From: Phanerochaete sordida
Lineage: Eukaryota; Basidiomycota; Agaricomycetes; Polyporales; Phanerochaetaceae
Assembly: GCA_019973155.2 (NCBI GenBank)
Contig: BPQB01000013.1
Coordinates: 310,001-374,000 of the forward strand
Direction: 5' to 3'
Length of the DNA: 64,000 nucleotides
Of this stretch, positions 14,359 through 59,598 are shown piece after piece. Position numbers and translations under genes: made by a program. Each line of letters opens with the position of its first letter. Position 1 is the first letter of the stretch. The notes beneath the pieces were generated by a model. The model made no database searches. It worked only from the letters and a program-made list of their open reading frames with translations, and was not told where the DNA came from.

Positions 14359-16127
14359 TCACCCGCAGATGCTCGGGTACATGAGCTGGGTCGGGTTCTT
14401 CGGGATCCAGCCATTCGCGAGACCAGCCTGGTAGGACCAGTCGTCTGCGCTCTCGGCCTTCCACGTCCACTGAATCCAGCCGGAGCCCTTCTCGAAGGTG
14501 ATCACTTGCGCCTCCCAGTACTGCCGCAGAAAGGTCTTGTAGCTCGCGCTGAACGAGGATGCGCTTCCAGTAATGCCGTTGCAGCTACCGACCCATGAGG
14601 ATCCGGGGTACGAGCCGTCGTAACGTGCCCCGACACCACGGCCGTTCAGGTACTTGGCGCAATCCGTCTGGGCAGGGGTCCATTCACCGACGATGATCCA
14701 GAGGTCGAACGAGGACAAGGACGAGCCGTAAGCGCAGGCAGCGGAGATGTGATCCTGGTAAGAACGAGAGACCTCCTGTATCAGGGTTCGGGTAAGTATA
14801 GCTCCATGATACACGAGGCATGAGTATCACGCACATCTTGAGAGAACATTTGGTAGATATGTGTGTCCATCGCAACACCCTGCCAGTTCGGAGCGGTCTG
14901 GAAGCCTTGCCAGTAGCTAAAAATGGCTTTCTTGAGCACGATTACGACACAGCACCTGTGGAAGAACAACGAACCTCAAGGGCTGGAAGGCGTCATGGAG
15001 CAGTACAACGGTATTACCCTGTTGCGAGGTACCATAGGGGAACCTGTATCATGTCAAGTATACCACCCGGAAAACTTGAGGATCAGGCTTACCGGATGTT
15101 GCCGTATGAGTCGTACCAGTACTGGCGGACAACGCTGAGCACGTCTGAACCGTCGAAACCGGCCGGTCTAAAACAATGATCTCAGGGTCTAGACGAAACA
15201 AGGACATTGTTTTGAGACGAACTCGTTCAGCGGGGCAATGATGGGCACCACGTTCTCTTGGCCGGCAAACATCGAAGCAATGCGTTTGATGATGGCATCC
15301 GTGCGAGCAACGTTGGTTGAGTTCGAGTGCCAGCCAGGGAACGAGATCCTGTGCCCGGAGTTGTCGAAGCTACCCACACATCTTATCAGTTTCCATGGCT
15401 CGGAACAAGGAGCAGGAGGGACATACCCATTTTGACTGCCCGGAGCGCCATGGAGGTCGACGATAACCTTCAGACCGTGGTTGCCCGCCCATGTGACGGC
15501 CTTCTGGAGGTAGGGAAGCTGGCCGGTGCAGTACGGCTCGCCGGGGCCTGTTTCGAACGCCCAGTATCCGATCGGTATGCGGACATGGTTCAATCTAACA
15601 GCGGGTGAATGTCGGTCAATATGATAGTCGGAATTGACGCGATCACGTGGACGCACCCGGCCGCAGCGATGGCGGAAAAGTCTGCCTCCGTGATCCTGAA
15701 GCGATCTTTGGGTCAATTGTGGCGTTGCGCGGATACGGATGTATGAAACGCACCAGGTGTTCCAGTGGTTCGTCAACACACCCATGGCGGTGTTATGGTC
15801 CTGCAGCTGGCAGAATGTCCACTCGTCAACGATGTCCGCGTTGCCCGTGTTGTCGAACAAGCTGGGCGTGATCCATGGCTGGGCTGAGGTCAGCGACGTC
15901 GAGGCGGCATAGTGAGCACACGCACCTCGAGCACAAGCCATCCTCCCAGGTTCACTCCGCGGACTGAGTCGGTTCGAACATGAGTTAACCAGTGGTGACG
16001 TCGATGGACAGCACCAACCTTTCTGGGATCCATAGGGAAAGCCGGCATTGATTGGGTTGTCACCGAGGGCGACGCGGGAGAGCAGACCCAGCGTGAGGAT
16101 GGACAGCGAGACAGCACGCCTGAACAT
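14359..16127 (-). CDS. secreted exo-1,3-beta-glucanase, glycoside hydrolase family 5
   Basis: Hydrolyses beta-1,3-glucan from non-reducing ends; used in wall remodelling and glucan mobilisation. The protein starts with a signal peptide (MFRRAVSLSILTLGLLSRVALG) and shows the family blocks in order: [54 protein letters not shown], the acid/base motif in APLNEPAGFDG (about 15140-15240) and the nucleophile motif IVGEWTPAQTDC (about 14670-14700). It ends YPSICG at 14359. About eight introns interrupt it. A TATAAA box lies 60 bp upstream of the ATG. Both catalytic Glu are present, so it should be active. It resembles the ExgA/Exg1 group rather than endocellulases. Confidence 0.92.
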
Positions 16128-18183
16128 GGTGAGCTGTCTGTGGGGGGCGGAGGAGGGGGTGCTCAGAGCGAGAGGAAGACGGGGGGTTTATAAAGGAAAG
16201 GTTGGGGAAGTTGAACCTGTCGGAAAAGGAAAAATCAGGCATGTGAAGGAGGGGAAGCACGATTGTTCAGACACTGTTTTCGGCATCGGTTTTCGAAGCA
16301 GCGTTTGGTGCCAAACGCGTGCTAAACGGGGGCACGACGCCTGGCGCTTGGTGCGTCTCTCACGTGGCGTCGCCTAAACTCGCCCTCCCCGCCGACGTGC
16401 CAGCCTGCTCGCGCTAAACCTCGCTTCTCCCTCAGCACGGAGAGCACCGTCTGCGCTTGTTCTGCGACTCAATTCGCGTGGTCCAGGTCATGTGCAGATA
16501 GCAGCAAACCTTCTCCGTACCTCGCAACCATGAGGTCTCGTATCAGACCAAGCGGGCCCGGCGCATCTTGAGGAAGAGTACGGCGGTGCGGAACTGACGT
16601 TGGGATCCGATCCATCGTTACATTCTGGTCTTTCGCTAGAGTCAGATGACTAGCAAATAACCAGCTCACCAAACCATGATATCCCGTATGTTCTAAACAT
16701 GTGTTAGCAACAGGCCGATCAAAGGCGAAAGTCACCATCACTCCACACTGTTGCGTGCAAAATATTCTGCATCTCCATGCATGGATCTAGAGGAGTCTCT
16801 GTACGGTTGTCCCAGCGAAGGTCGCGCACTCTGATGTCAGAGTCAGGTACGCACCTCCGCATGCACGGCCCAGCCAGCGCAAGTGACGTCTCGACCAAGG
16901 GATGAGCCACCTTGCAAAGCGTACCGGCTCAACGCTTCGCTGGAGCAATGTCCACACGGACGCCGACCCTGGTCGGGCAAAGAGAAATACAGCACCGGTT
17001 TCGAGAACTCGTTCTCGACATGGACACCATCATCCATCTGCAGGGCGGGATGAGACATCCCGCGGCCACACGGTACGGCGACCGTTCGGGTCCAATTCCA
17101 AGCTGGCGGCCCCGAACCGGCGGCTGCGACGAGCTCGGAAGATCGCCGAGCGTCCCGTAGATGCGAACGCGCCCATGCGGCGCGCACAGGCTGCCGGCAC
17201 ATCGACTTCGACAGTGCCAAGACCCGCAAGCAACATGTGAGCAACGGTCGGATGACACGGATGCGCGCATGTCCTCGACCTGACGATGTATTCAGCCATG
17301 CAGGATATGAAGAGATGTCGCCCGAGTACGCACCGAGCATGAAAACTTTCGACGGCGGCGCGCGCGGAAACACTCCCTTGGGTCAGGGTGCCGGTCAGAG
17401 GGGCGTGGAAGATCCTCACGGACCGCATACATGGTCAAGCGGACTGCATCCGTGAAGGAGGTGTCGATTGTCATGCCCGAAGGATACGAGATAGGGACGA
17501 CAGGAGAGCCCCTGGGACGTCGATATCTGGTGTCAGGGAAGATTTTCCAGGCTGGACTAGGTGAGTTTTAAAACCACAGTGACGACAATCAGGTGCTTTC
17601 AGGAACTCAGGATTATACCATCTAGCAGCACACGAAAGACGTGTATACCGCGTCCCACCACCAGGTGACTCTCCCGTCCAATTGCCCACAATAGCCTTCG
17701 CGAAGCAGCCGGGACAATCGCGACCTTGTCGGACGAACACGAGCACGCGTACGAGTACTCGGAGCGGATTCGCGGCGTATGGGAAACAAGGCGCGTGGCA
17801 AGGGAAGTCGAGTGCGTCCGCGAGGAACACGCGAAATTTGCATGTGCAGGGCAGGCGAGACGAGATTGAATTTTCGTAGGTTCGGATGCGCAACAAAGAC
17901 AGGTTTCATTAAGGCAAAGCTCGCAGATAGACGTAGAGATAGAGCAGGAGTGAGGCCGTCGGGGCTGCGAACATGAGGGGCTGAGGCAAGATGACCGTCG
18001 TGTGTGAAGCCGCGACAGGCGCGGCGGGACTTGGCTAACTCTGGTTTCTTACCCTCACTCTACCCTGACCGACTGCCGCAACGAAATATTGGACTCCTTC
18101 GCCTATTCACCAGCTGTATCCCGTCGCGGAGTACAGCCCGTTCATTCCAGGACTACTCCGGCACGGCTGAAAAGGAATTCCAC
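16128..18183. other. 2-kb region without a supported gene
   Basis: Apart from the glucanase promoter next to 16127, no frame here shows a domain, a credible exon chain or a start context. Open frames at 16843-17428 on both strands lack recognisable motifs. A decayed or multi-exon gene cannot be excluded. Confidence 0.4.
16187..16192 (-). promoter_or_regulatory. TATA box of the GH5 glucanase gene
   Basis: TATAAA read on the minus strand, 60 bp upstream of the ATG at 16127, in a purine-rich tract; position is right for a core promoter. Confidence 0.6.
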
Positions 18184-20254
18184 ATGAACGGTGCACAAGC
18201 TGCTACCAGGCAGGCCAGGCCGCCTCCGACGGGTCCAACTCCTCCGGCCCCCTCTGCGGCGCCACCCGCTCCGCCAAATAATGCGACTACGCCAGCTAAT
18301 ACAGGGCAGCCCCCACCTGCAACCCGCCAACCAAATGGGCCCGTAAACGGGGCGCACTCGCATGCTCAGAAGGGCAAGAAGAAGAGCGATCCGCCGGTAG
18401 ACCCGTCACAGTTGTACGAGAGTCTCAGAAACCGGATTGCTACGCTTGAGGAGGAGGAGATTCATAACGAGGAGGAGGAGCGGAGAATTGGTGCGTCCAG
18501 CAAGCAGCTACACGTTACCACTCAGGCGTTCACATGCATACAATTATAGCGGAGGAGGCACAGATCACCGTCGCGGGCCTCGGAGACAGTGCTGTCCACC
18601 AGAAATACGTTGAGCTGGTGAGTTCACATGCTGTCGTTGTCTTGCTGTCTTGACGTGCTCGAGATGGCAGTTCACAGAACTAAAGCGACAAGAACGCGAC
18701 CATGCCAAGGAGAAGCAGAAGCTCGTGAAGGACAAGGATGCCGGTCAGTGACCCTTGAAGCTGTCGCTATGTCTATGCAGCTTTATTTACGCTTTGCATG
18801 AAGCCAAGGGCCAGCTTACGAAGGCGAATCAGACGAAGACGAAGATGGAGAACCTGGCTCGGGAGCTACAGAAGGTGAACGCGAATGCTTGGGGGTCTAT
18901 TCATGATTTAACCTTTCTCTCAGGATAACAAGAAGCTACGGGTGTGTTGCATAGCGGAAGGACGAGATGATATGCGCATTCTCACATCTGCGTAGGAGGA
19001 CAGCAAACGGTTGATGCAGTCAGTGGAGGAGGCCAACTCGCAGGTGCGTACGTATGGTCCCTGGCACGTCCCCCTAACCTCACCCGCCCCTCGCCACCTG
19101 ACAGCTAAGCCAAATGAAGCTCGAGGTGGCGAAGCGGACAGAGAAGCTCAAGATGCAGGACGTCAAGTACCGCGAGATGCCCGACATCGTCGTGAAAGTG
19201 CACTGCAAGTACCGCGCGGAGCTCTTCTTCAAGATCTCGCGCAAGACGAAGCTCTCGCGGCTCTTCAACGCGTGGACGGAGCGCATGGAGGTCAACGAGA
19301 AGAAGGGGGACGCCAAGCCGCAGCCTTCTGGCGCGTCCGCCGCGGCGGGCCAGCAGGTCAACGGCACGTCGGGCTCGTCCACGCTCTCCGCAGGCGCAAT
19401 GCAGTTCATCTTCTCGCATGGCGGCCGCACCCTCGAGGCAGATCAGACGCCGGAGGAGGCAGGCATGGAGGATGGAGATGAGATCCTGGCTGTGGAGATG
19501 ATGGACCTGACTGAGGGGCCAGGGACAGAGGAGATCGTGCGTGTTTTGTATGAATTGCGTCTCACAAGGCTAATTTCCGACAGGACGAGGACGGCGAGCC
19601 TCGCCGGCAACTGTTGAAGAAACATTGGCAGGAAGATCCTCTAGAGTGCGTAGACCTCAAATGACAGCACAGAACGAGGTCTAATTGGCATACAGGGCTC
19701 GCAAGGTGATGGAAGACATCTTCGACGGCGTGTACGCACTTTAGGTCCTACCTGCATCCTACCTTGAAGCTGACCGTCGCATAGTATTCGAGAACGCCTA
19801 AAGGACATCTTGCGACAGTACGAACTGCGGGAACGACATTTCGAGTGTGTCATACGCTCGAAAGAGCTCGAGGTTCTGCTATCGCGAGCGCGAGCAGCAG
19901 AGCAGATGCAGCTTGCCGATGGCGAGAAGGGTCGTGCGGACAAGGCAGAAGCAGAAGTACGCCCACCCACAGCTGCTCTCCAAGCGGCGCTGACCTTGTC
20001 TGTGCCGTACAGGTACACCACTATCGACAAGAACTGGAGACGGTGCAAAAGGGACAGAGTGCGCTGATCGACAAGCTCATAGCGTGCTGCAAAGAGGTGC
20101 GTGCCGCGCAGCGTATGCACACACTGCGCCCCGCTGACACGCGTTCCAGCCGAACGCCGAGCGGACACAACGCCTGTTTTCGTCTTTACGAGATGAGCTC
20201 GAGAGGCGGGGCACAATGCCTCCAGGAAACGCCGACGGCCCTGTGGGCGGATGA
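18184..20254 (+). CDS. taxilin-like coiled-coil protein with embedded SUMO-like domain
   Basis: Ten or so exons read as one continuous frame. Residues of the N-terminus are Pro/Ala-rich, then the coiled coil runs through GQLTKANQTKTKMENLAREL and KLREDSKRLMQSVEEANSQ, like the first half of taxilins (syntaxin-binding coiled coils of vesicle traffic). At 19114-19543 the coil gives way to a ubiquitin-fold segment: VKVHCKYRAELFFKISRKTK, then FIFSHGGRTLEADQTPEEAG and MEDGDEILAVEMM, closely patterned on SUMO/Rad60-type domains but without a Gly-Gly end. After introns at 19534-19583 and 19640-19694 the frame returns to taxilin: RERLKDILRQYELRERHFEC and IRSKELEVLLSRARAAEQ. It ends GPVGG at 20254. Splice phases agree on both sides of the insert (CAG|CTA; GAT/GTT codons split), so a single fused gene is the simplest reading. 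Confidence 0.82.
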
Positions 20255-20515: not shown

Positions 20516-22047
20516 TTACACCAGCGCGTCGAACTCCTCGAGGGACTCGACCAGGCCCGAGCGCGTGAAGGTCTTGCCCTTGAGCGACTCGAGGCCCTCG
20601 CCGGCGTAGCTGACAAGCGGGGAGATCTCGATCTCGACGCCCTCCGCGAGCTTTGCGCCGGCGGCCTCGAGGAAGCGGCGGTGCTGCGCGAGCAGGTCGC
20701 GGCGGCTCGTGCCGGCGTCGTCGGAGCCCGTGCCGGGCGCGTTCTTGAGCGGGCTGAACTCCTCGTTGCGCGGGACCTCGAGCACGGCGAAGTGCTTCGT
20801 GTGCGGGAAGACGTCGAAGACGAAGAGTTCGAGCTTCATGCCGTTGGGCGACGTCGGCTTCACCGTCTTGCCGTCCGCGCCGACGTACGGAATCTTCTTG
20901 CGCGCGATGTGGTGCGCGAGCGAGTCCTCGAAGGTCTCGACCGACTTGAGGAAGTCGAGCGTGTAGAAGTGGTTCACGATGTTCGCCGCGCGGAACGCGA
21001 GCTCGCCCTTCGCGTCGCGCAGCTCGGCCTGCTCCTTCGTGATCTCGGAGTACTCGACGACGAAGAACTTGTTGTCACGGCGCGCGACGACGCCGACGGA
21101 CTCGGTGGGGTACGCCTTCGGGACGACCTTTGCGGCGCAGTCGGCCTGCTTCTCGATGCAGTAGCCGAGGAAGATGGGGTCGGCGACCTTGACGAGGCAG
21201 TTGTCCACGCAGTACGCGTGGACGTAGCGGACGCCGCGCTTCTCGAGGTCGGCGAGGACAGTGTGGGTGTCATCGAAGGGGTTGAGCGGCTGGCGAAGCG
21301 CAGCGTAGAGACCACCATTGCCATTTGGCGCGACGGCAACCTTCGAGGGCGTCTCGAGAATGACCTTGCCATCCGTGGTAAGGCAGGGCAGGGTGCCTGG
21401 ATACACAGCATCGTGAATCGCACGTTCCTCTGAGCTGCAAAGCACAAGCACGCACCTTGCTCAAAGAAGATCACGTTCTTGGAGCTCAGCCCGAAGTACG
21501 CATTTTGCTCGAAGAACGCCTCGGTCTCCTTCCTGGTCGGTCCGCTGGTCATGACGTACCAAGGGACTATCGCAGGCGTGGACGACTGGGTTTCCTCGGC
21601 GGCGACCTTCTGCAGGCGGGCGATGCGCTCGGCTTGGTACTGGAACAGCGACTTGTGCGAGGGCAGCCCAATGTCGTAGCAACCTTTGGGTGCGGAGCTT
21701 CCGAGACGCGTCCCCTGTCCGCCAGCCATGAGCAGGACACCGACCTCGCCGTTGGCGACGGCCCTGAGACCGATGCTCCTCCACTTCTTCTCTTCCTCGC
21801 TGCCAGGCTTGAGCGCGCCGGCCGCGTCTTCTGGCAAGGGCTCAATGACCTCCTGGCCCGCCGCCTCCTTGGTGCGCTTCTCCGCAGCGATGGCGTTGTC
21901 GTAGGCACGGTTGACACGTTCGATGTCGATGGCCTCGAGCTGCGCTTGGAGCTGTTCCCGCTCTGTCTCAGAGAGCTGAGGCCAGAACTGCAGGAGGTGA
22001 CCCTGGCCGGCAGCCTCGAAGCGTTGGCGGAGGGACTCGATGGCCAT
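20516..22047 (-). CDS. UAP1: UDP-N-acetylglucosamine pyrophosphorylase
   Basis: Makes UDP-GlcNAc from UTP and GlcNAc-1-phosphate in the cytosol, supplying chitin, N-glycans and GPI anchors. ATG at 22045-22047 starts MAIESLRQRFEAAG. The uridyltransferase signature LLMAGGQGTRLGSSAPKG is at residues 106-122, followed by GCYDIGLPSHKSLFQYQAER, PWYVMTSGPTRKETEAFF and, after one 58-nt intron, TLPCLTTDGKVILE and PNGNGGLYAAL. The C-terminal half has VDNCLVKVADPIFLGYC and NGMKLELFVFDVFP, both family hallmarks. Full length, about 490 residues, with one visible intron (about 21395-21455). The gene ends tail to tail with the taxilin-like gene, 261 bp away. The symbol follows yeast UAP1/QRI1. Confidence 0.96.
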
Positions 22048-35997: not shown

Positions 35998-37743
35998 CTA
36001 CGTGGAGACGCCGTACTTGCGGAGCGTCGCCGCGCACTCCTGGCGGGAGACGTCCTCAGGAGCCATGACAACCACGGTTGGCTTGCGCTGGCTCTCGGGC
36101 CCGAAGAACCTGTGGGCGACGCGGCGGATGGTCGCGGCGTCGACCTCGTCGATGCGATCGCACATCTCGTGGACGGGAATCTTGCGATCGTGGACGAGCA
36201 TCTGGGTTAAGAGTTCATGAGCAACTCGTGCCGATAGCGAAACGACGCGAACGTACCTGCCGACCGAGGTCCTCGACCTCGACGCTCCTGCTCTCGAGCG
36301 CCATGACCAAGCTCGACTTGAGCTGGTTCTTCGCGCGTTGGAGCTCCTCCTCCGGGATCGGTGTGTACAGCAGCAGGCTGAGCTGGTGCACGAGGTGCGG
36401 GAAGATCTCCGCCGGGCTGTTGCCCTCGCTGCCCCTCGTCCTGCCGATGCGGCCGCGGCCGATCTGCCCGGGCGGCCGGCTGACGAACGACGCGTAAAGC
36501 CCGAAGAGCGCCGAGTCCGTGTAGATGTGGTTGAACGACGCGCAGTGCTCGACCTGCGGGTAGTGGTTCAGAATGTGGGTGTACAGCCGCGAGTACATGC
36601 CCTTGCCGGGCCCGCCGGCGCTGAAGGAGCCGCCTCCGCCGAGCAGGACCTGTATTGTGGCGACGGCGTAGACATCGGGGTCGTGAATTGAGGGGCCTTC
36701 GTAGGCGAGGTAGAGGTGAGAAAGTTGAGGAAGGGGAGGGTTTGATGGCGGTGGTGGCACGGGTGGAAGATAGCGATGGCCGCCAGAGTATGTTGAGCCC
36801 AGTGGAGGGAGTTCTGGTGCCGACGGCTGGTTCGGCATGAGATAAGACGATGCCGCTCGTGTGAAGGACTTGTATAATGAGTTTTGTTGTGGTTGTGACG
36901 AAGGAAGGAGGTGTGCAGGTATTTGCTGCGTCCGAGACGAGCCAGAGAAGGATACTTGGGGTTGTGAATGTTGTTCAGGAGCGACGTACTTGATGCTGCC
37001 GAAGAACTTGTCTGCGAGCTCCACAAGCTCGTCATGGTGCATTCCCGCACCCGCGATGACCATTCGCTCTGGTCGGTACCACTGCTTCATGAAAGTTCGC
37101 ATCGTGTTGTCGTCGATCTCGTCGACGCGCTCCAGCGGGCACAGTAGAGGGTTCCCAAGTCCAACACCTCCGTAGGCGGCGTGGTGTAAAATCTCAGGCA
37201 GTATCATGTCGGGCTTGCTGGTGACCTCTCGTATCTCGTACCGTGCAGCGTCGCGCTGCGCTTCGAGCTCCTCCGGCAGGAAAGCTGGAGAGGTTACGGT
37301 GTCGGCAATGAGAGACATGGCAAGTGGCGTGGCATTCGAGAAGTGAGAGGACTGATACATGATGGCTTCGCGCGTGGACGAGCATAGTATCTGTCCACCA
37401 AGCTTGTCCATTGCTTGTGCCATGTCCTCGTCTGAGCGGGTTGTTGTTGTCTGTAAAACTGTGAGGGACCTACAGACATAGTCACAGGATGGATACGCAC
37501 CTTGAACGCCATTCGATCCAAGAAATGGCTCACCCCGGACGATGCTGGAGTCTCATAACGCGAACCAGCATCAACGTACAGCCCGAGAGCGGCGAAGTGA
37601 CCTGGAGTGTGCTCCGTCGCGACCCGAATCTTGTTCGGGAGAGTTGTCATCTTGACAAGCGGGTCCGCATTCTTCGTCAAATCATGAGTGTGTATGCCCC
37701 GGCGGCGGAGGGCACCCAGCTGTCGTAGGGGAGCTTTACGCAT
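35998..37743 (-). CDS. MAS2: mitochondrial processing peptidase, alpha subunit
   Basis: Non-catalytic partner of the heterodimer that removes presequences from imported matrix proteins. ATG at 37741-37743 begins a basic targeting sequence (MRKAPLRQLGALRRRGIHTH), then MTTLPNKIRVATEHTPGHFA and AALGLYVDAGSRYE. Where the beta subunit has the HxxEH zinc motif this protein has HFLDRMAFK, so it lacks the catalytic site as expected for alpha. GGQILCSSTREAIMYQ, the ERMVIAGAGMHHDELVELAD block and the glycine-rich loop LLGGGGSFSAGGPGKGMYSR identify the alpha chain. A proline-rich stretch of about 70 residues (about 36740-36960) lies between the two M16 halves before HLYLAYEGPSIHDPDVYA. Three exons; stop at 35998. 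Confidence 0.94.
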
Positions 37744-57105: not shown

Positions 57106-58807
57106 ATGCTTGCTGCAGCACTCGCGCTGGGCTCTCTCGCGGGGGCCACCCTGGCGACGCCGTTCTTCAGCCCCGTCGACGCCATGAACCTCTTCTCCCG
57201 GAACGCCCAGATCAGCTCCGGGTGCAGCACGAGCGGACCCGCGTCGTGCCATAACACGACAAAGGAGACCAATCTCTGCTGCTTTGAGTCCCCTGGCGTA
57301 GGTTGTCGTGTCCTGCTGGCGAGGACGGCGGCTCAGTCCTTGCGCAGGGTCTTCTCCTTCAGACGCAGTTCTGGGATACAGACCCCTCCACCGGCCCTTC
57401 CGACAGCTGGACAATCCACGGTAAGGTCTCGTGATGTAATAATGACGTCTCTATTGACTCAGGGCTATCTTGTAGGTCTCTGGCCGGACAAGTAATGCTG
57501 TTTCCTATCCAATCGCGACCTTGTCCCTGACCGAGTGTCCCTGACAGCTGCGATGGCACGTTCTCCGAAAACTGCGACGCGTCCCGTGACTACACCAACA
57601 TCGCCGGTGTACGTGCCACAAAGTATTTCAGTCCATTCTCTGTAAACTGACTCTGCTCTCAGCTTCTGACAGCCCAGGGTGCGGCGGATACCCTTTCCTT
57701 CATGCAGGAGTACTGGGTCGACATCAACGGCCAGAACGAGCAGTTCTGGGAGCACGAATGGAGCACCCATGGCACCTGCTACAGTACCCTGAAGACCTCC
57801 TGTCTTCCGTCCGGCAGCGCCAAGGGCGCTGAGGCGGTCTCGTTCTTCAACACCGTCGTTGCCCTCTTCAAGGTAGGCTGCCCTGGATTACTCACATGAT
57901 AATTCCTGACCATGCTGTCACAGACGCTGCCTACCTACGACTGGCTATCCTCTGCGGGCATCACTCCCTCGTCGAGCAAGACCTACACTCTGTCGCAGAT
58001 CACCTCGGCTGTCCAGTCCGCGCACGGCTTCATCCCGGCCCTGAACTGCGATAGCAGCACGACCATCAGCCAGATCAGCTACTACTTCAACCTGAAGGGC
58101 TCGCTCCTCGACGGCACGTTCGTGCCCATCGGTACGCGCAATCCCCCTTTGAGGAGACTTCTCTGACTGGGATGAACTAGATACGCCCGAGAAGGGCACC
58201 TGTGCTTCGAGCGGACTCAAGTACATCCCCAAGTCCGGCTCTGGCAGCAGCTCCCCTACCACTTCCGTAAGTCCATCCTCGTCGGCCGCTCAGCCACGAG
58301 ATCCTGACCCGCTATCTATAGGCCGGTGGTTCCTCCCCTTCAGGCACCGTAAGCGCAGAGCCTCATTGCACACAGTTGTGCCCTTGCTAAGATCTACCCA
58401 GGGCGGCCTCCCGTCGAAGGCCCACCTCCAGGCGAGCACGACCGGCGCGCTGCTGACCGCCGGCACGTGGTCGACGCAGACGCCAGCGACGTACACCATC
58501 TCGGGCTCGCCGAGCGGCTTCACGCTCTCGACGTCCAAGGGCAAGTGCGCCGTCTCGAGCGGCACGCTCGCCTGCGGTAGCAGCGTCTCGACCGCGTCGA
58601 CCTTCACCGCCGTGCGCCCCTCCCCGCTGCTCCCGCGTCCCTTTGCTGACAGCCGTGCAGGTGACGTCGGGCTCGCAGCTGCTCCTCGCGTTCCAGGGCT
58701 CGACCGCGTGGACGAGCGACAGCACGCCGAGCGGCACCGACCAGGAGACCGTGTTCACCGGCACGGGGCACTCGGTCGACTACACCATCGCGATCGTCTC
58801 GACGTAG
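57106..58807 (+). CDS. secreted ribonuclease T2 with C-terminal extension domain
   Basis: Extracellular or vacuolar acid RNase cutting RNA through 2',3'-cyclic phosphate. Signal peptide at ATG 57106 (MLAAALALGSLAGATLA), a Cys-rich start (SSGCSTSGPASCHNTTKETN), then the two catalytic segments: CAS I SWTIHGLWPDNCDGTF and CAS II FWEHEWSTHGTCYSTL (about 57746-57790). CAS I is spread over three exons: DSWTIHG ends at 57420, a 16-nt exon (57476-57491) gives LWPD, and the next exon supplies NCDGTF. Later: ISYYFNLKGSLLDGTFVPI and a Ser/Gly linker, then a beta-rich domain of about 110 residues (SKAHLQASTTGALLTAGTW, YTISGSPSGFTL, DQETVFTGTGHSVDYTIAIV) as in fungal T2 enzymes. Stop 58805-58807. About nine introns. 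Confidence 0.93.
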
Positions 58808-59053
58808 GTCCCTGTCCGCAGAGAGGGCCTGCTTCAGGGTTCTGTAGCATTGAGGAGCGGACGAAAAGTCGGACGGAATTCTGGGACTATGTGTGGATTT
58901 GGCCTGGACGGATGTATAGCAGCGCTGTGTATTTTAGGTTATTCTTCGATGTTTTGCACACCAAACTGCGGGCGCCTCAGTCACATGCCCGGCGCGACGC
59001 GTACGCGCCTCCGAAGATGCGGACGACTGCCTCCCTGACCTTATCCCTCCACG

Positions 59054-59598
59054 ATGGCCCCACCCCCGCCGTCCGACCACCCCGCCTTCCGCCTGCGGCT
59101 CCTCGCGAGCCCGTTCGCGGTGTCGCAGCTCACGCCCGACGAGCCCGTCCCCGCGCACCTCGTGCGCGCCCTGGCGGACCCCGCCGCGGCGCAGGGCCGC
59201 TTCGTCTCGGTCACGCGCACCGCCGACGAGCTCTCCGTCGTGCGCGAGACGGACGAAGCGGACGCGGCCTGGCGGTGCATCCGGATCGCGGGGCCGATGG
59301 ACTTTGGTGGGTCGCTACTTCGCTGTGTCTCGGGCGATGCGGGATGTCGATGGCTGAGTGCGGGTGTGCCAGGCATCACGGGCGTCATGGCGAACCTCAC
59401 CGCGCCGCTGAAGGCTGCGGGCGTGCCCGTCTTTGCCGTCTCGACGTGGTGCGTCCCTGGCTCCTAGATGAGTACAAAAGCGAGCGGGATTTTTGACGAG
59501 CACGCGGCAGGAACACCGACTACGTGCTCGTGCCGAAGGACGATGCGGAGCGCGCTGTGCGGGCGCTGACGGACGACGGCTGGCAATTCGACGCGTGA
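59054..59598 (+). CDS. ACT-domain protein (CASTOR/ACT_7-like)
   Basis: Three exons: 59054-59306, 59373-59448 and 59511-59598, giving a small protein of about 138 residues. The second half, AWRCIRIAGPMDFGITGVMA followed by NLTAPLKAAGVPVFAVSTW and NTDYVLVPKDDAERAVRALT, is a typical ACT fold of the kind that binds amino acids in regulators such as CASTOR. The N-terminal half (FRLRLLASPFAVSQLTPDEP) is the partner subdomain. No enzyme domain is attached, so a small-molecule sensor is likely (inference). Splice phases are consistent (split Trp codon at the second intron). It lies on the same strand as RNase T2, 246 bp downstream. Confidence 0.83.

Follow-up and report, generated by a model that had tools for sequence, protein, structure and literature searches.

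A SUMO-like domain within a taxilin coil

In the analysed window, a stretch of 64,000 nucleotides of the Phanerochaete sordida genome (contig BPQB01000013.1, positions 310,001 to 374,000; assembly of 40.8 Mb in 222 contigs), one gene encodes a taxilin-type coiled coil with a SUMO-like domain (SLD) in its middle. We propose to read this domain as a SUMO mimic that is permanent and not conjugated, probably derived from a copy of SUMO, and that would provide a fixed docking site on the taxilin coil for proteins bearing a SUMO-interacting motif (SIM), a reading to which we would give even chances from sequence. The SLD-taxilin gene is laid out as follows, in positions of the window.

18184..20254, + strand: whole SLD-taxilin gene, 12 exons, 491 aa (splicing and translation)
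18184..18490, + strand: exon 1, Pro-rich disordered N-terminus and first part of the coil (translation; orthologue model)
18591..19113, + strand: N-terminal taxilin coil, exons 2-7, residues 117-198 (PF09728 positions 22-106 of 302)
18996-19043, + strand: exon 6, phase 0, last residues EEANSQ (splicing)
19105..19536, + strand: exon 7, 144 codons, phase 0 at its 5' and 3' ends, containing the entire SUMO-like domain
19180..19512, + strand: SUMO-like beta-grasp domain, residues 221-331
19291..19398, + strand: variable low-complexity loop from helix 1 to strand 3, residues 258-293
19584..19731, + strand: exons 8 and 9, linker returning to the coil, with intron 19646-19695 in between
19785..19914, + strand: C-terminal taxilin coil with LRQYELRERHFEC, residues 372-415 (second PF09728 stretch, own-genome match to profile 135-192)
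19785-19956, + strand: exon 10, containing LRQYELRERHFEC (splicing)
20150..20254, + strand: exon 12, C-terminal helix and tail, last residues ...DGPVGG (translation)

All introns are of the GT-AG type and 47-61 bp long, and the frame from 18184 to 20254 is stop-free after joining. A first-pass annotation of the window had claimed that a taxilin coil, a ubiquitin-fold segment and a taxilin hallmark are spliced together in phase, which is borne out by the presence of all its quoted strings in one frame: FIFSHGGRTLEADQTPEEAG and MEDGDEILAVEMM both lie within exon 7, in the same frame as EEANSQ and LRQYELRERHFEC. The interval that it gave for the element, 19011-19840, does span exon 6 into exon 10, but the fold itself occupies only ~19180-19512. 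The closest match among the best 120 of 280 (P0001, Phanerochaete carnosa, Polyporales) is likewise 491 aa long and 94% identical over 100% of the length, and the choice of start, stop and splice sites is supported by this protein of equal length.

A Pfam scan of the joined protein found the two expected families, Taxilin (1.5e-20, in two stretches) and Rad60-SLD (2.7e-8), both above their cut-offs, and no third family above cut-off; PF11976 matches the exon 7 translation alone at 9.1e-10. The Taxilin match amounts to 74 bits against a curated cut-off of 30.3. It does not form a single uninterrupted coiled coil, as its two profile stretches flank the SUMO-like domain. The structure prediction, made on the P. 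carnosa orthologue (94% identical) and not on the window protein, places a helix (residues 115-218) before the domain and further helices (337-341, 346-356 and 358 onward) after it, while residues 1-14 and 16-69 have a predicted local distance difference test score (pLDDT) below 50.

One gene, conserved across Agaricomycetes

The same order of domains recurs among Agaricomycetes from Cantharellales to Polyporales. Homologues were taken from the best 120 of 280 matches, and the best 120 of 177 in another search, with a coverage of Agaricomycetes. All 120 listed homologues of the former carry both families in one predicted protein, as do 11/11 proteins of a search biased to long proteins, which include two Tulasnella proteins (Cantharellales) and one of Clathrus (Phallales). 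For residue counts, 87 of 128 proteins were thinned by hand into an alignment (hereafter A1), for which most of the unnamed metagenome entries were dropped, along with the fusion models P0122 and P0128 and some of the named ones (41 in all); a separate scan found Taxilin (E 0.001 or better) and Rad60-SLD in 87/87 A1 members. From these sequences, the combination of taxilin and SUMO-like domain appears to be an old design in Agaricomycetes and no local oddity.

Several homologues lie on contigs that leave little room for introns. For P0116, P0143 and P0139, all with the arrangement coil-SLD-coil, at most 142, 293 and 314 bases are left, against 11 introns totalling 595 bases, and the P0167 contig leaves 222 bases against 8 introns of 423 bases in the matching part of the window, these intron totals being those of the window gene and not of the species concerned. 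The P0112 and P0020 contigs are less telling (411 and 566 bases against 595). Because the contigs are too short for the introns of the window gene, these homologues would seem to resemble transcripts.

These data bear on whether two neighbouring or nested genes, for instance a SUMO-like gene in a taxilin intron, have been wrongly spliced together. Exon 7 is symmetric (0-0), so that its skipping would leave an in-frame, coil-only taxilin, the open frame 19102-19617 has Met codons upstream of the fold that could provide a separate start, and the spacing between the coil motifs is shorter than elsewhere in 4 of 142 proteins. However, both families stand in one predicted protein in each of the 120 listed homologues, and the four homologues on the shortest contigs read coil-SLD-coil in one frame. 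As for the four proteins with shorter spacing (P0233, 72 residues; P0156, 104; P0165, 132; P0170, 25), P0233 lies outside the family, and the other three (from Ceratobasidium, Rhizoctonia and Tulasnella) are joined via partial or odd pieces and look like faulty gene models. No clean exon-7-skipping product was found among the 142 proteins with both motifs. We give the two-gene explanation virtually no credence, and coil-SLD-coil as one protein from one gene, as first annotated, is supported.

In P0156 and P0165 the SUMO-like domain is absent or partial, while Rhizoctonia solani P0157 has the whole domain; either faulty models or real decay would fit.

Position of the insert

P0233, the one clearly uninterrupted taxilin among the matches listed, serves for comparison and has a single Taxilin profile stretch (2-221, 222 bits). 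Its database record is assigned to a tree, the hornbeam Carpinus fangiana, but from what is known of ascomycete taxilins we suspect an ascomycete contaminant. The motifs RELQ and QYELRE are 72 residues apart in P0233 versus 198-259 in 138 of the 142 proteins with both coil motifs (out of 245), in agreement with the idea that the domain was inserted where an ordinary taxilin has coil only. In the window protein, the Taxilin match breaks off at profile position 106; the second stretch starts at 116-119 in P0148 and P0165, and covers 135-192 in the search of the window genome. Matches end at profile 192 (window), 212 (P0148) and 228 (P0165), and a diverged tail could escape detection.

Exon 7 was considered as the exact unit of insertion and is not the best candidate, as it comes 31st when 150 sliding deletions of 144 residues are scored against P0233. 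The best deletion (215-354) scores 312, that of exon 7 297, and no deletion 203. Since the exon 7 deletion is compatible with P0233 but outscored, the edges of the insert, which by this comparison would measure ~140 residues, are uncertain by some 10-30 residues.

Fold and probable origin of the domain

The ubiquitin-like fold expected at about residues 190-330 is present in the structure prediction of the orthologue, as a SUMO-type beta-grasp. Foldseek ranks 1 and 3 are both 3tix, a Chp1-Tas3 entry built as an SMT3 fusion. The loop between helix 1 and strand 3 is poorly conserved (residues 258-293: mean top-residue fraction 0.41 and 0/36 positions at or above 0.95 in A1), and its residues 264-290 have a pLDDT below 50.

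With the loop removed, the domain profile of the family scores highest with the fungus's own SUMO (44.5 bits), followed by Smt3 (42.5), SUMO1 (33.3) and ubiquitin (3.4). Eleven other ubiquitin-like loci of the genome reach at most 8.5 bits among those listed, but they were scored as single open frames and their low scores stem in part from split exons; Rad60-type domains entered only as exon pieces, and the comparison with them is weak. The absence of any Rad60 relative from 50 listed rows of a further comparison is given no weight. Given this ranking and the separate SUMO gene that the genome retains (C-terminus QVGGSA), a SUMO duplicate is a likely source of the domain. The protein of exon 7 matches only the SLD-taxilin locus at E 0.001, with no duplicate elsewhere in the genome. 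The initial likening to SUMO and Rad60-type domains thus stands in part: the fold is of the SUMO type and closer to SUMO than to ubiquitin, and the architecture is not that of Rad60.

The fold is not followed directly by a C-terminal Gly-Gly, as had been noted early on: the window protein has MDLTEGPGTEEI in this place. Of the 102 rows (among 127) with the motif of strand 5, 10 have a Gly-Gly within 12 residues past the strand, and all ten run on for 170-189 residues beyond it. Being part of a larger protein and having no terminal Gly-Gly itself, the domain seems to be of type II among ubiquitin-like domains, and we infer a permanent SUMO mimic that is not conjugated.

Groove and opposite face

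Groove positions were matched to SUMO1 by hand alignment, and we take L47, Y51 and R54 to be further SUMO1 groove positions and the numbering of I34 and L44 to be as written here. PMC12687455 names F36, V38, K39 and K46 as SUMO groove residues and numbers Ile33 and Leu45 where our numbering has I34 and L44. The SIM-groove positions hold L, F, I/V, L/F, R/K, L, W and R, each in 87/87 A1 members, and SIM binding by the domain is plausible from this pattern. A1 replaces an earlier residue count, made on 137 of 245 proteins chosen by a groove-internal motif plus the window protein (entries of at least 700 aa excluded; 136 rows with letters at most positions), which was set aside because selection by motif biases the groove positions.

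Several observations weigh against a docking role. The groove lysine K39 of SUMO1 is replaced by S in 86/87 members and by G in 1/87, with an A1-invariant R next to it. The groove lies within a stretch (221-257) that is conserved throughout, 25/37 positions being at or above 0.95, and the taxilin coil 372-415 is equally conserved (37/44 positions), so that conservation of the groove is not distinct from that of its surroundings. The acidic patch for enzyme contacts, on the opposite face, persists in part, the positions of SUMO1 E83, E84 and D86 being acidic in 87/87, 83/87 and 87/87 members. The position of Y91 is V or I, and is little informative since our alignment puts M at this position in the SUMO of the fungus itself. 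Finally, binding to syntaxins and sorting nexin 4 is taken from animal alpha-taxilin, and the Taxilin profile goes unmatched here over its C-terminal third (~228-302).

The retained acids would also suit a domain that recruits or sequesters the SUMO E2 enzyme Ubc9, thereby steering sumoylation to the taxilin scaffold, and Ubc9 is indeed bound by SLD2 of Rad60, Esc2 and NIP45 (PMC2946365). Yet Glu67, the signature SUMO-Ubc9 contact (PMC12687455), has no acidic counterpart at residues 299-301 in any of the 87 rows, even with a two-residue shift allowed, and E89 of SUMO1 is replaced by L, V, I, M or Y in 87/87, never by an acid. Moreover, the groove of Rad60 SLD2 is reported to be obscured (PMC2946365), which is the reverse of the pattern seen here. 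Judging from these residues, enzyme binding via the opposite face becomes less likely, and we regard a Ubc9-directed role as improbable.

The domain might also be a purely structural module, that is, a coil break, a hinge or a means of self-assembly without any partner in the SUMO pathway. It is predicted to sit between two long helices and has a long disordered loop, and the flanking coil is as conserved as the domain. A spacer, however, need not retain a hydrophobic and basic groove in all 87 members, Polyporales and Cantharellales included, and this possibility, which deserves some weight, seems to us unlikely on balance.

Self-inhibition, in which an internal SIM-like segment would fold back into the protein's own groove until released, was assessed by a scan for SIM-like cores present in at least 60% of rows. 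Outside the domain, a four-residue core recurs at one place, residue 400, in 86/87 rows; this core (LEVL) lies within a confident helix and not in a free strand, and three further recurring cores, at 224, 225 and 322, belong to strands within the SUMO-like domain. This explanation appears very improbable.

Proposed role and comparison with known systems

With a fixed docking site as the preferred reading, the SUMO-like domain would form a constant landing site for SIM-bearing proteins within the taxilin coil, and this coil would in turn associate with proteins of the kind that it joins in animals, for example syntaxins or sorting nexins. SIM proteins could thereby reach the taxilin scaffold with no need for sumoylation. 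Of the animal taxilins, the alpha form binds syntaxins as well as sorting nexin 4 (PMC3972091), and alpha- and gamma-taxilin are required for centriolar subdistal appendages (PMC8816381). More tentatively, and with somewhat less confidence than in the docking site as such, we suggest that early Agaricomycetes built a SUMO copy into their sole taxilin, where it was frozen as a constitutive SIM receptor on a membrane- or microtubule-linked coil.

The protein resembles the taxilin family (PF09728; alpha-, beta- and gamma-taxilin in animals) in its two coil stretches, whose summed score exceeds the curated cut-off, and differs in the ~140 residues with the SUMO-like domain that interrupt the coil and in the unmatched end of the profile. 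The window locus is the only taxilin found in the genome by the Pfam model, although a coil divided among several exons is easily missed in such a search. From SUMO/Smt3 the domain differs in being embedded in a coil, in lacking a Gly-Gly after the fold, in its 27-residue disordered loop and in its non-acidic Glu67 position. With the RENi proteins (Rad60, Esc2, NIP45), whose non-conjugated SUMO-like domains belong, in the literature consulted, to factors of chromatin, transcription and genome stability, it shares a non-conjugated SUMO-like domain in a larger protein and the Pfam model that carries the name of Rad60. Here, however, there is a single such domain, which occupies residues 221-331 of 491 and is flanked on either side by taxilin coil, and the Glu67 position is non-acidic in 87/87 aligned sequences.

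UAF1 has a different protein context and acts in DNA repair. Its SUMO-like domain is the closest working parallel, a fixed domain binding a SIM-like loop (UAF1-FANCI; PMC12687455), by likeness of proposed function.

The pairing of taxilin with a SUMO-like domain is already visible in databases, in which most named entries of the family (among the best 120 of 280 matches) are called hypothetical, uncharacterized or ubiquitin-like. The public record of P0078 is labelled 'Small ubiquitin-related modifier 1', a warning to annotators. No publication joining taxilin with a SUMO-like domain, or naming both Pfam accessions, was found in a search that mostly left out subscription literature, and the listed publications that mention taxilin and SUMO concern other matters, judged by title. 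If the proposed role holds, a SUMO mimic in the taxilin coil of lineages from Cantharellales to Polyporales would link recognition of the SUMO type with a family of membrane traffic and microtubule anchoring, as a built-in direct route from SUMO recognition to trafficking without sumoylation. The system would lend itself to a clean test, with one locus found, one exon, a groove breakable by single substitutions, and laboratory mushrooms as hosts.

C-terminal tail and neighbouring genes

The protein as a whole ends in Gly-Gly, ~160 residues past the fold in a disordered tail, which the first-pass annotation had put down to possible chance. It is no one-off, since the C-terminus (20219-20254 in the window) is GG in 72/127 rows and GS in 22/127; VG occupies the third- and second-last places in 46/87 A1 rows. 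One thought is that the terminal Gly-Gly acts as a C-terminal degron.

Other features of the window are the following.

1139-2578, + strand: SH3 match, with a myosin TH1 piece below cut-off
15192-16187, - strand: glycosyl hydrolase family 5 match
20519-22047, - strand: UDP-N-acetylglucosamine pyrophosphorylase-type gene (PF01704 at 20519-21460; start by eye)
36218-37552, - strand: peptidase M16 match
58153-59493, + strand: RNase T2-like C-terminal domain match

The pyrophosphorylase-type gene is convergent with the SLD-taxilin gene. A gene model of Phellinidium pouzarii (P0128) is a fusion of SLD-taxilin with a pyrophosphorylase-type gene, and the two genes seem to be adjacent there too, in the other orientation.
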